A DNA stretch of 64,000 nt from Amycolatopsis australiensis (GTDB lineage Bacteria > Actinomycetota > Actinomycetes > Mycobacteriales > Pseudonocardiaceae). A model generated the notes under the pieces. That model searched no databases. It saw nothing but the letters and a program-made list of their open reading frames with translations, and was not told the DNA's origin. The position numbers were made by a program, and so were the translations under genes. Location: assembly GCF_900119165.1 (NCBI RefSeq), contig NZ_FPJG01000006.1, forward strand, positions 8,594,001-8,658,000, given 5' to 3'. Below are positions 2,659 to 61,926 of this stretch, one piece after another (within the stretch, counting starts at the first letter, position 1; each line of letters opens with the position of its first letter).

Positions 2659-2759
2659 GATTTCGCGGCGTCGCGAATCCGCGCGAATATCCGGAAAGAC
2701 AAAGATCACGATCGGCGTGCCGGTGCGGCGCGCCGGCACGTCGATGGGTGGTTTTCGCT

Positions 2760-4166
2760 GTGACTGTGACCGACCCGGTGGAATCCGACGAGCAGGCGCC
2801 GTTGAGTTTGGGGCGGGCCGCGGCCCGGACGTTGGCGACGACGACGAAGTCGGTGCCGCAGATGCAGGGCATTTCCTCGCGGTGGCTGCTGCGGGTGCTG
2901 CCGTGGGTGGAGGTCTCGGGCGGCACCTACCGGGTGAACCGGCGCCTGTCGTATGCGGTCGGGGACGGGCGGGTCACGTTCACCTCGACCGGCAGCCAGG
3001 TGCGGGTGATCCCGCCGGAGCTGGGCGAGCTGGCCCCGCTGCGCGGGTTCGCCGACGAGGAAGTCCTGGCCGAGCTGGCCGACCGGTTCACCCAGGCCGA
3101 GTACCAGCCGGGGGACGCGCTGGTGGAGTTCGGGTCACCGGCCGATCAGGTGTTCCTGATCGCCCACGGCAAGATCAGCAAGGTCGGGACCGGCGCCTAC
3201 GGCGACCAGACCGTGCTGGGCACCCTGGCCGACGGTGACTACTTCGGCGAAGCCGCCCTGCTCTCCGGCGAGGAGATCTGGGAGTTCACCGCCAAGGCCG
3301 TCACCGCCTGCACCGTGCTCACCCTGCCCCGGGCAGCGTTCGAGGACGTGCTGTCCCGCTCGGAAAACCTGCAGGCGCACCTGCACGAATTCGCAGCACG
3401 CGGGTCGGGGGCCCGCAACGACCACGGCGAGGCGGAAATCGCGCTGGCCTCCGGACACGACGGGGAACCGGTCCTGCCGGGCACCTACGTCGACTACGAC
3501 GCCCAGCCACGGGAATACGAACTGTCGGTGGCCCAGACCGTGCTGCGGGTGCATTCCCGGGTGGCGGATCTGTACAACCAGCCGATGAACCAGATCGAGC
3601 AGCAGCTGCGCCTGACCGTGGAAGCCCTGCGGGAACGACAGGAACACGAACTGATCAACAACCCCGGGTTCGGGTTGCTGCACAACGCCGACTTCGCCCA
3701 GCGCATCCCCACCCGCACCGGCCCACCCACCCCCGACGACCTCGACGAACTGCTCGCGCTGGTGTGGAAAGACCCCGGGTTCTTCCTCGCCCACCCCAAA
3801 ACCATCGCCGCGTTCGGCCGGGAATGCACCAAAGCCGGCATCTACCCCGACACGGTCGACCTCGGCGGCCACCAGATCCCGGCCTGGCGCGGCATCCCCA
3901 TCCTGCCCTGCAACAAAATCCCCGTCACCGACACCCGCACCAGCTCCATCCTGCTGATGCGCACCGGCGAACAAGCCCAAGGCGTGGTCGGACTGCACCA
4001 AACCGGGCTCCCCGACGAATACCAGCCCGGCCTCAACGTCCGGTTCATGGGCATCTCCGACCAGGCCATCATCTCCTACCTCGTCTCCGCCTACTACTCC
4101 GCCGCCGTCCTCGTCCCCGACGCCCTCGCCATCCTCGAAGCCGCCGAACTCGGCCGCGAAAGCTGA
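2760..4166 (+). CDS. eshA: Family 2B encapsulin shell protein (EshA-like)
   Basis: The 468-residue product is a virus-derived (HK97-fold) nanocompartment shell protein of encapsulin family 2B, the family that includes Streptomyces EshA. The N-terminal arm and E-loop-like region carry the family signature ([23 protein letters not shown], in pieces of the first 60 residues). A cyclic-nucleotide-binding-like domain is inserted at about 90-205 ([32 protein letters not shown]). The shell domain resumes ([62 protein letters not shown]) to the end. In the nucleotide-binding domain the usual phosphate-contacting Arg after the GE motif is not seen ([11 protein letters not shown]), so ligand binding may differ. 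GTG at 2760 is chosen because GGGTGG lies seven bases upstream and the sequence [12 protein letters not shown] matches the usual start; a GTG at 2748 is possible. The cargo enzyme follows. Confidence 0.93.
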
Positions 4167-4171
4167 CCACC

Positions 4172-4572
4172 ATGCCCACACCCACCACACCCCCACGCCC
4201 ACCCGAACACCAGCCACCCCACCCCAGCACCGGCCTGCCCCCTCGGCACACGGACCCACCGGACTCGGCACCACCGCCACCCGCATCACCCCCACCCGCG
4301 CCAAACCCGAAACCGGCCAGCAGGCGGGCCGGACCACCGCCCCCAGCCTCCCGCCGACCGCACCCACCAGCACCCCCACCCACGCCAAACCCCACCCCGG
4401 CCAGCGGATCAATCCCGCCACGGTCCTCCCGCCAGCCACCACACCCACCGACGGGAAACCCGAGCCCGGCAAGCAGGCGGGCCGGACCACCGCCCCCAGC
4501 CTCCCGCCGACCGGACCCACCAGCAGCCCCACCGGCGGCAAACCCGACCCCGGCGGGCGGGTGCGCCCGTGA
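4172..4572 (+). other. Pro-rich cargo-loading linker with conflicting reading frames
   Basis: This stretch between shell and enzyme encodes a disordered Pro/Thr/Ala-rich sequence with two near-identical units of about 35 codons. An ATG at 4172 opens a frame that stays open to the end of the enzyme at 5707 (511 codons). In that frame, however, third positions are A-rich through the repeats (many CCA, GCA, GGA). The frame starting at base 4258, one base behind, has almost only G or C in third position. It reads GPTGLGTTATRI, then two units containing QQAGRTTAPSLPPT and KQAGRTTAPSLPPT, and stops at 4570-4572. From memory, a GPTGLGT-type motif is typical of family 2B cargo-loading peptides. The second frame has no start codon of its own. 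Either a shift or a base error is likely. Confidence 0.6.
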
Positions 4573-4700
4573 CCGCAACAGTGTTCGCGCCGCCCCAGGA
4601 TGGACAGCACCGCCGGCGCTACGACCGGCCGGACGTCGGATCGCGGTCCCCGGCGCCGGTACCGACCGGGCTCGACGACGGCGAAATCGGACACCCATGA
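4569..4700 (+). CDS. Possible 43-residue coupled ORF or linker segment
   Basis: A GTG at 4569 overlaps the stop of the preceding high-GC3 frame (GTGA), and the TGA at 4698-4700 overlaps the ATG of the polyprenyl synthase (ATGA). The product would be a 43-residue hydrophilic peptide starting MTATVFAPPQDGQ and containing PVPTGLDDGEIG. Codon third positions are moderately GC-rich, better than the enzyme's frame over the same bases. It may be a small translated linker, or the third piece of one originally continuous cargo-loading region. No known family recognised. Confidence 0.3.
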   Translation: MTATVFAPPQDGQHRRRYDRPDVGSRSPAPVPTGLDDGEIGHP

Positions 4701-5707
4701 CGACCATGAACACGCGCACCCCGGCCCGGCCCGTCGGCGACGTCCTCGCGTGGAGCAAGAGCCTCGTCGAGCCGGCGCTGCGCGCGAGCGCCGAACGGCT
4801 GCCCCCGGCGATGCGGCGCATCGCCGGCTACCACTTCGGCTGGTGGGACACCCACGGCAGGCCCGCGGACGGCGACGGCGGCAAGGCCCTGCGCCCCGCC
4901 CTCGTGCTGCTGTGCGCCGAAGCCGCGGGCGGCGATGCCGCGGACGCCGTTCCCGCCGCCGTCGCGGTCGAGCTGGTGCACAACTTTTCGTTGCTGCACG
5001 ACGACGTCATGGACGGCGACACGACCCGGCGGCACCGGCCGACGGCGTGGACGGTGTTCGGCACCGGGCCCGCGGTGCTCGCCGGGGACGCGTTGCTGAG
5101 CCTGGCTTTCGAGCAGCTGACGCCCGAGGGCGCGAAGCTGCTGTCCCAGGGCGTGCTCGACCTGCTGGAAGGCCAAGCCGCCGACGTCGGCTTCGAGCAG
5201 CGCGACGACGTCACGCCCGCGGAGTGCGTCCGGATGGCCCTCGGCAAGACGGCGGCCCTGATCGGCGCGGCCTGCGAGCTCGGCGCCCTGCACGGACCCC
5301 GTGCGAAAGACCGGTTCGGCGCGTTCGGCCGGGCGGTCGGGCTGGCGTTCCAGCACGTCGACGACCTGCTCGGCATCTGGGGCGACCCGGCGGTCACGGG
5401 CAAGCCGGTGTACTCGGACCTGCAGAACCGCAAGAAGTCACTCCCGGTCGTGACGGCCCTGTCGTCCGGCACGGCCGCGGGCGCGGAACTGGCGACGCTC
5501 TACCGCGGCACCGACCCCTTCGGCGACGGCGAACTCGCCCGCGCGGCTTCGCTGGTGGAGGCCGCGGGCGGACGTCAATGGAGCCAAGCCCAAGCCGACG
5601 CGTTGCTGGCGAAGGGACTTCGCGAACTCGCCGCGGTCGACCCGGTCCCGCGGGCCGGCGCGGAACTGGCGTCCCTGGCCCGCCTGATCACGACCCGCAC
5701 TCGCTGA
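4697..5707 (+). CDS. Polyprenyl diphosphate synthase, encapsulin cargo
   Basis: The 336-residue product is an all-alpha trans-prenyltransferase that condenses isopentenyl diphosphate onto an allylic diphosphate. Seen: GGKALRPALVLL near residue 62, first Asp-rich motif DDVMD at 102-106, basic TRRHRPTAW, the KTAALIGAACELGAL helix, and a second Asp-rich region QHVDDLLGIWGD near 220-230. In that region the usual DDxxD is replaced by DDLLGIWGD, as in the group annotated as family 2 encapsulin cargo. The position directly behind the shell gene supports encapsulated prenyl synthesis. The product chain length cannot be read from the sequence. The enzyme could be expressed alone from the ATG at 4697 or as a 511-residue form from 4172; only the longer form, or a frame-corrected one, would carry a loading peptide. 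Confidence 0.9.
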   Translation: MTTMNTRTPARPVGDVLAWSKSLVEPALRASAERLPPAMRRIAGYHFGWWDTHGRPADGDGGKALRPALVLLCAEAAGGDAADAVPAAVAVELVHNFSLLHDDVMDGDTTRRHRPTAWTVFGTGPAVLAGDALLSLAFEQLTPEGAKLLSQGVLDLLEGQAADVGFEQRDDVTPAECVRMALGKTAALIGAACELGALHGPRAKDRFGAFGRAVGLAFQHVDDLLGIWGDPAVTGKPVYSDLQNRKKSLPVVTALSSGTAAGAELATLYRGTDPFGDGELARAASLVEAAGGRQWSQAQADALLAKGLRELAAVDPVPRAGAELASLARLITTRTR

Positions 5708-60994: not shown

Positions 60995-61693
60995 TTATGC
61001 CCATACCTTCCACTCGTCGCTGAACGATTGCCAGGGATGCGGTCCGGAGTCGTGGCGGTCGATCAGCCGCGAGACGCCTTCAGCCCACATCGGGAGGTCT
61101 GCCATCTCGAGCAGTAGCCGCCGCTGCATCTCGGCCCAGCGCAGCTCGATGGTTCGAGTGCCGCGGTGCGCCCGAAGTACGACCTCGTCCGGCTGGAGGG
61201 TTTCCTGATCGCGAGGGAGTACCCACTCCGCGGCGAGACCGACATCGTCCAGCGCGGCGAGCAGTGGCTCGCTGGACATCGTGACGAAGTACATGGCGTA
61301 GTCGGTGATCAGCCGCGCGCACAACGCGGGTGACAGTGGGTAGATCGACCACGGAGGCATCGTCGGCGAGCGCGCCACGAAGTCATCGCTGCGCGCCCAG
61401 ACCAGATGCCCGACGTCCAGGATGCGAGCCCGTTTCACGGCCTGGCGGTGTTCGGCGGCCGTCCGGTCGATGAATTCGCGTTCTGGCCACAGTTGGTAGC
61501 CGCGCACGATGTCGGTCGCCACTAGTGCCCGGCCGCCAGGAACCTTCATCCCCTGGACGCCACGGTCGTGGGCGAGGTCGAAGGCTGTACTCAGCAGGTC
61601 AAGGTGCGTCTTATACGGGATGTCGAGCGGCACCAGTCGGCCCGGAAGGTCGCCCGGCAGCGGTCCACCGGAGCGGATCGCCTCTTCAGCCAT
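60995..61693 (-). CDS. Unknown protein, probably 3' part of a split gene
   Basis: The 232-residue frame from ATG 61693 reads as a real protein (LPGRLVPLDIPYKTHLDLLSTAFDLAHDRGVQGMKVPGGRALVATDIVRGYQLWPE; PWSIYPLSPALCARLITDYAMYF; ELRWAEMQRRLLLEMADLP). It overlaps the frame at 61591-61926 by about 100 bases. Joining KQWLKR of that frame to AIRSGG here would give one continuous protein, so a single-base shift near 61685 is likely. No family recognised. Confidence 0.5.
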   Translation of the reverse strand: MAEEAIRSGGPLPGDLPGRLVPLDIPYKTHLDLLSTAFDLAHDRGVQGMKVPGGRALVATDIVRGYQLWPEREFIDRTAAEHRQAVKRARILDVGHLVWARSDDFVARSPTMPPWSIYPLSPALCARLITDYAMYFVTMSSEPLLAALDDVGLAAEWVLPRDQETLQPDEVVLRAHRGTRTIELRWAEMQRRLLLEMADLPMWAEGVSRLIDRHDSGPHPWQSFSDEWKVWA

Positions 61694-61926
61694 TGCTTCG
61701 CGACGCGCCGGCACCCTGCCCGATGTTCCTGGACCTCCAGCACTCGTGCGAGCAGGTCCTGCTGGAAGTCGTAGAAGTCCTCGGCACTCCGACATCGCCG
61801 CAACGCGGTGATCAGCCGCACCAGGGTGCCGACCCCGTCCTGGTGAATCGGGTGTCGGAAGATCTGGTTCGTTCGCTCGAGCGGCATGTCGTTGAGCAGC
61901 GGCACCAACGCAGCCTCCCATGACAT
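61591..61926 (-). CDS. Unknown protein, probably 5' part of a split gene
   Basis: This 111-residue frame (MSWEAALVPLLNDMPLERTNQIFRHP, VRLITALRRCRSAEDFYDFQQDLLARVL) is coding-like up to about residue 82 (KQWLKR). After that its codons lose bias, where the frame of 60995-61693 takes over. A further in-phase-looking segment lies upstream in the other frame (ELTDLVLGDV), so the true N-terminus may be upstream as well. No family recognised. Confidence 0.45.
   Translation of the reverse strand: MSWEAALVPLLNDMPLERTNQIFRHPIHQDGVGTLVRLITALRRCRSAEDFYDFQQDLLARVLEVQEHRAGCRRVAKQWLKRRSAPVDRCRATFRADWCRSTSRIRRTLTC

Follow-up and report, generated by a model that had tools for sequence, protein, structure and literature searches.

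A probable decayed family 2B encapsulin operon in Amycolatopsis australiensis, with a free-standing loading-motif reading frame between overlapping genes

The window, the whole 64,000-nucleotide stretch of Amycolatopsis australiensis DNA analysed here, contains a shell gene, a polyprenyl transferase gene and, between them, a repeat-bearing linker whose reading frame matches neither neighbour. The locus comprises the following features:

2741..4321, plus strand: segment shared with G000:C6:6365655-6367236, minus one C (blastn)
2748..4166, plus strand: Enc1, family 2B encapsulin shell (SrpI-like HK97-type domain with a cNMP-binding-like insertion), VWK motif (NF041163, PF19307, PF00027)
4172..4572, plus strand: small ORF bearing the loading motif (sORF), placed between Enc1 and the Enc2 remnant and running from ATG 4172 through a frame break at the C-run 4238-4242 and GPTGLGTTATRI at 4252-4287 to the stop TGA 4570-4572 (intact same-genome twin of 77 aa; orthologues)
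4238..4242, plus strand: homopolymer of five Cs, the site of the frame break (six Cs in the twin copy; comparison with the twin)
4284..4560, plus strand: repeat expansion of the linker tail (4284-4407 against 4437-4560, spacing 153 nt or 51 codons, 86% identical)
4569..4700, plus strand: apparent collapsed Enc2 of 43 codons, with GTGA and ATGA junctions (DNA alignment to the ends of the copy-2 Enc2)
4697..5707, plus strand: polyprenyl transferase (PT) of encapsulin cargo type, 336 aa (NF041169, 451.9 bits)

Enc1 has the HK97-type SrpI-like domain with an inserted cNMP-binding-like domain that defines a family 2B shell, scoring 783 bits against NF041163 (cutoff 400), 457 bits against PF19307 and 67 bits against PF00027. 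At the first motif that distinguishes the two shell types it has VWK where the other shell, Enc2, has RRRK, as fits this assignment; the second diagnostic motif of PMC12407261 gave a loose match only. The match of PT to NF041169 passes narrowly (cutoff 450). Full-length Enc1 and Enc2 genes lying close together, the mark of a two-component family 2B operon, occur at a second locus of the same genome and in relatives; in the window Enc2 is represented by the 43-codon remnant.

Enc1 stops at TGA 4164-4166; ATG 4172 is in phase 2 (mod 3) and GPTGLGTTATRI in phase 1. The phase-1 linker frame ends at TGA 4570-4572, overlapping GTG 4569 as GTGA, and the 43-codon frame opened by that GTG ends at TGA 4698-4700, overlapping ATG 4697 as ATGA. 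These frames and joins, and the placing of the linker in a frame other than those of shell and enzyme, had been described in a first-pass annotation and are borne out by the sequence and its ORFs; the loading-peptide-like motif reported in the linker frame is real, and reads GPTGLGT. The third-position bias invoked for all three frames holds for the linker (4243-4569: G+C of 0.88 at the third position of the phase-1 frame versus 0.67 and 0.77) and for the enzyme (4697-5707: 0.92 at the third position of the PT frame), but is weaker in the 43-codon ORF (third position 0.79, first 0.81). Because a codon-usage Viterbi path labelled 4159-4696 as non-coding, composition alone is weak evidence for frames here, and conservation of the frame across relatives is the stronger evidence.

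The same chromosome carries a second Enc1 gene 2.2 Mb away, followed by the second shell type, Enc2. The shell genes of the genome comprise two Enc1 and one Enc2, with two further matches that are weak and partial. Aligned to this twin by blastn, window 2741-4321 gave 1582 columns with 0 mismatches and 1 gap, being otherwise identical over 1,581 bases; the single gap is the run of five Cs at 4238-4242, which has six in the twin. There, the ATG equivalent to 4172 leads straight into the linker frame to encode a free-standing 77-residue protein, whose end meets Enc2 in a GTGA overlap. The window sORF thus lacks a usable start only because its C-run has five Cs. That the linker frame has no start, as first proposed, is correct for the window as sequenced but is a one-base matter, since the twin with six Cs is intact; a one-base sequence problem had been among the options considered, and the break lies at 4238-4242 rather than at ACACCCCCA, where it had been sought.

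Whether the missing C is a real mutation or a sequencing error is close to balanced, and we lean slightly towards error. Pointing to error are the position in a C homopolymer inside a repeated tract and the lack of any other difference from the twin; pointing to real change are the scarcity of unexplained frame switches elsewhere and an operon already without a full Enc2. A frame-break scan that recovered 18 of 30 test deletions found 4 of 125 frame switches without a stop or start in 400 kb of the same chromosome, which speaks against widespread indels in the assembly but leaves room for a single error. We looked for a second strain of the species in which to judge the C-run and found none; the nearest PT was 88% identical, and a protein search with the sORF gave one distant match. 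If the loss is real, the frame of ATG 4172 happens to run open into PT.

The scan also flagged 2 of 21 switches inside the window. One, near 662-676 in a minus-strand gene with a Pro-rich tail (404-1534), has neither stop nor start and may be a low-complexity artefact; the other, also on the minus strand (61049-61903), lacks a stop.

We searched 199 genomes, 80 of them Amycolatopsis, with a profile of four such small proteins (E<=1e-6, with scoring limited to 32 candidates per genome). This gave the sORF in at least 21 genomes, at 22 places, all within the 80 Amycolatopsis; the named public records with the motif ORF were likewise Amycolatopsis (eight of eight). With the same profile the broken window copy reached E 8.3e-4, and matches outside the 21 genomes were weak (E>=2.8e-4) and left out of the count. 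Among the candidates scored, 59 of the 80 Amycolatopsis gave no sORF at E<=1e-6, and some of the genomes without a match encode a PT about 84% identical (such as G003 and G064), so loading of PT cannot depend on the sORF everywhere.

Twenty-one intact loci, from 20 relatives and the own second copy, encode sORFs of 51-87 residues. Each has its own ATG and stop, and in all 21 the ATG lies 2-8 bases from the stop of an Enc1 3' end, which in G040 is all that is left of Enc1 and in G023 is where the contig starts. At 14 of the 21 loci this ATG shares bases with the Enc1 stop (TGATG or TAATG), and at 20 the sORF stop does so with an ATG, GTG or TTG. Downstream, an ordinary Enc2 match follows in 17 loci; Enc2 is broken in G040, the contig ends in G036, and no Enc2 was seen after the sORF in G025 and G023. 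PT, where present, lies directly behind Enc2, through an ATGA or TGATG overlap in the closer relatives and after about 25-30 bases in six more distant loci. Comparison with the same locus in relatives, proposed at the outset as a check, thus recovers an intact design of Enc1, sORF, Enc2 and PT with mostly overlapping stop and start codons, in agreement with the suggestion of separate coupled products; since the relatives' genes overlap at these codons, frame steps at the joins are normal for the operon.

This layout bears on two readings in which the linker would be reached by recoding. A +1 shift at the shell stop (AGC TGA C) would add the linker to Enc1, and the TGAC context of that stop, with the phase-1 frame open from there, would permit it; the sORFs of relatives are nevertheless separate, all 21 with their own ATG and stop and 14 with the ATG overlapping the Enc1 stop, and the stop contexts vary (TGATG, TAATG, TAGATG, TGAGC, TGACA), which makes such a fusion to the shell extremely improbable. 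A programmed -1 slip of ribosome or polymerase at the C-run would instead feed the linker frame from ATG 4172, and re-pairing there is possible on paper and would yield the twin's peptide. Six Cs do occur in three of the 21 intact sORFs (G030, G062 and the own twin) and five in one (G028), but all 21 are in frame and 17 lack any run of five or more, while the RNA fold after the C-run is ordinary (z -0.81; 41 of 200 shuffles fold as well). Across the 21 orthologous sites and in the fold test we found neither a conserved slippery site nor a stimulator, as programmed frameshifting would call for, and regard this option, too, as highly improbable.

Among the 21 sORFs, mean differences at codon positions 1, 2 and 3 are 0.21, 0.18 and 0.44, and pN is below pS in 209 of 210 pairs, with a median dN/dS of 0.30 (the pairs being non-independent). 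The pattern by which sORFs were collected demanded GPTGLGT and a TPPR-like start, so these residues are invariant by construction. Judged from these sequence comparisons, the sORF appears to be under purifying selection. GPTGLGT is present in the sORF frame of the window and of the 21 intact sORFs, in a stretch that is disordered as judged from composition only. The linker repeats of the window have no third-position excess (23 differences, phases 9/8/6), so the repeated tail is not visibly constrained.

Read from ATG 4697, PT begins MTTMNTRTPARP, just ahead of its conserved domain. Its first residue aligns with the start of the match in 25 other genomes of the genus at 80-86% identity, and a Met stands at the equivalent place in 27 of 27 loci compared (26 besides the window), which is not proof of a sole start, as longer in-frame starts are possible at loci without an Enc2 overlap. 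PT is therefore predicted to start at 4697, as in 25 relatives.

We weighed against this a start at ATG 4172, giving a protein to 5707 in which PT bears a 175-residue Pro/Arg-rich N-terminal extension through a real one-base deletion. The frame is indeed open from 4172 to 5707, and the available text of PMC8346489 attributes to family 2B PTs a disordered N-terminal domain of 50-100 residues, which PT read from 4697 does not have. The openness means little, however, because the same frame is already open from 3764, inside Enc1, as part of an ORF of 3764-5707, and the extension would be out of coding frame. PT moreover retains its own coupled start, and the PT of relatives has a Met at the equivalent of 4697 which in the closer ones overlaps the Enc2 stop. 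The first-pass annotation had held that a corrected sequence with one open frame from 4172 to 5707, high in third-position GC throughout, would count against it; an open frame over that span exists already, but the linker is read out of its coding frame there. A linker belonging to the enzyme is not supported, and an extended PT is very unlikely.

The 43-codon ORF starts with GTGACCGC, as does Enc2, and ends in TGLDDGEIGHP (..VPTGLDDGEIGHP); in relatives Enc2 ends in ..LDDVEIGRS, typically ..VPDALGVLDDVEIGR, adjoining the PT start. In a DNA alignment to the Enc2 of the same genome both ends of the ORF match, such that the Enc2 start junction and the last 11-15 or so codons are kept. Similarity at the 3' end has a score of 38, reached by 0 of 1000 shuffles; for the middle (4577-4645, 23 codons) we found no significant similarity to Enc2, 21 of 300 shuffles reaching its score. 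At the PT locus of G060, a 17-codon Enc2 remnant, MMPDALGVLDDVETGRS, is joined to PT by ATGA (L089 6340-6445, in PT orientation). L089 yielded no GPTGLGT motif; at its cyclase locus the same genome has a normal-length Enc2 match. The G060 remnant is an independent, parallel collapse of Enc2, and in both places the junction to PT has outlived the shell gene.

In 7 of 20 loci examined, motif-bearing ORFs stand between the two shells, with GPTGLGT-like motifs between domains or near the end; the two-domain encapsulin cyclase family NF041168 is the best family for all seven, one of them (L125) scoring above the cutoff. Together with a published TC/PT operon type in which a cyclase occupies that slot (PMC12407261, section 2.1), this raises the possibility that the sORF is the functionless relic tail of a terpene cyclase once lying between Enc1 and Enc2. 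The signal of purifying selection across the copies of 21 genomes, collected by a pattern demanding GPTGLGT and the TPPR-like start, speaks against it, and we consider a functionless relic somewhat unlikely. As to origin, the simplest inference is a cyclase gene cut down to its targeting tail. Rearranged cyclase slots were also noted: in L126 (3263-5382) each half of the two-domain cyclase model has an ORF of its own, both ORFs having a GLGT-type tail, and in L128 (3401-6740) an extra single-domain ORF, corresponding to the first half, lies beside a full two-domain ORF.

The second encapsulin locus of the genome (L035:8531-12705; G000:C6 about 6364530-6368705) consists of a terpene cyclase, Enc1, the motif ORF and Enc2. 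Its cyclase scores 486 bits against NF041167 (cutoff 400) and carries its own N-terminal, in-cis GPFGLGTSAARI. In nine genomes where both loci lie away from broken contig ends, Enc1 of the cyclase locus and Enc1 of the PT locus in the same genome share 98.6-100% DNA identity (G036 and G068, omitted here, have 99.65-100%). Between genomes, the mean is 88.6% and the maximum 94.8%, figures that include G036 and G068. G037 entered the comparison with the longer piece of a broken Enc1. In the Enc1 tree all nine within-genome pairs are monophyletic, with support of 0.996-1.0 in eight and the own pair identical; Enc2 behaves likewise in all five genomes compared (93.9-99.2% within genomes, no more than 88.7% between them). 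At L172 (G037) and L099 (G040) the Enc1 match is split into two or three pieces that overlap, a pattern that a frame break or a partial duplication would give.

Across species, each cargo is found at its own locus; the two loci therefore appear old, with shells that have been homogenised, gene conversion being the simplest means. Such concerted evolution of Enc1 at unlinked cyclase and PT loci suggests, as far as sequences can tell, that both cargoes share one shell pool. In Streptomyces lydicus, section 2.2 of PMC12407261 reports that Enc2 alone formed shells and Enc1 alone did not; on that precedent the window locus, with Enc1 only, would need the Enc2 of the cyclase locus. PT and cyclase might then be packed together in mixed shells with that Enc2, which we offer tentatively, as somewhat short of an even chance. 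A wider reading, which we think doubtful, combines a free-standing GPTGLGT protein acting in trans (as adaptor, lumen filler or occupancy tuner) with gene conversion that keeps the shells of two unlinked operons interchangeable, placing PT and cyclase in one mixed shell as a two-step terpene reactor built from two loci.

The anatomy is thus very probably that of a decayed family 2B two-component encapsulin operon with a free-standing motif ORF and overlapping joins, and we have high confidence that the frame puzzle comes down to genes that overlap, one indel and a shell gene that has collapsed. Every protein would have its own start, with translation probably coupled by the short stop/start overlaps seen at the joins; because genes meet at these overlaps, the coding frame steps at each one. 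Enc2 would have shrunk by internal deletion to a 43-codon ORF, similar to it at both ends, that still links sORF to PT. The sORF would be a separate, small, probably disordered protein with a family 2B targeting-like motif, its frame in the window apparently broken by loss of one C relative to the twin; the linker belongs to neither shell nor enzyme, and the pattern is explained by separate, coupled genes together with the loss of one base. Enc2 would come from the second locus, at a distance of 2.2 Mb; gene conversion is the most likely reason why the Enc1 there has stayed identical. The sORF may serve as a free loading or filling peptide, probably contacting the shell lumen through GPTGLGT.

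With the putative family 2B targeting motif present as a separate conserved gene, it can be asked directly whether the motif alone binds shells, and the concerted evolution seen between the shell genes of a cyclase locus and those of a transferase locus provides genomic evidence for two cargoes sharing one shell; the accessible parts of the open-licence literature searched contained neither a separate motif gene nor such concerted evolution. With the two-component family 2B system of S. lydicus (Enc1/Enc2, TC/PT operon), as set out in the relevant sections of PMC12407261, the locus shares VWK versus RRRK shells, a PT directly after Enc2 and a cargo slot between the shells; it differs in having a small motif-only ORF instead of a cyclase in that slot, and in that the window Enc2 is a 43-codon remnant. 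PT agrees with family 2B PT cargo (NF041169) in scoring above the cutoff and in operon position, but is without the 50-100-residue disordered N-terminal domain described for that class in the available text of PMC8346489. The same text reports GPTGLGT and GPTGLGTSAAR for cyclases, and the consensus GPTGLGT(S/T/A)A within a Pro/Ala-rich stretch is common to the sORF and to the 2-MIB-synthase-like and geosmin-synthase-like cyclases described there; on those cyclases the motif is carried in cis, whereas here it is borne by a free-standing protein of 51-87 residues.
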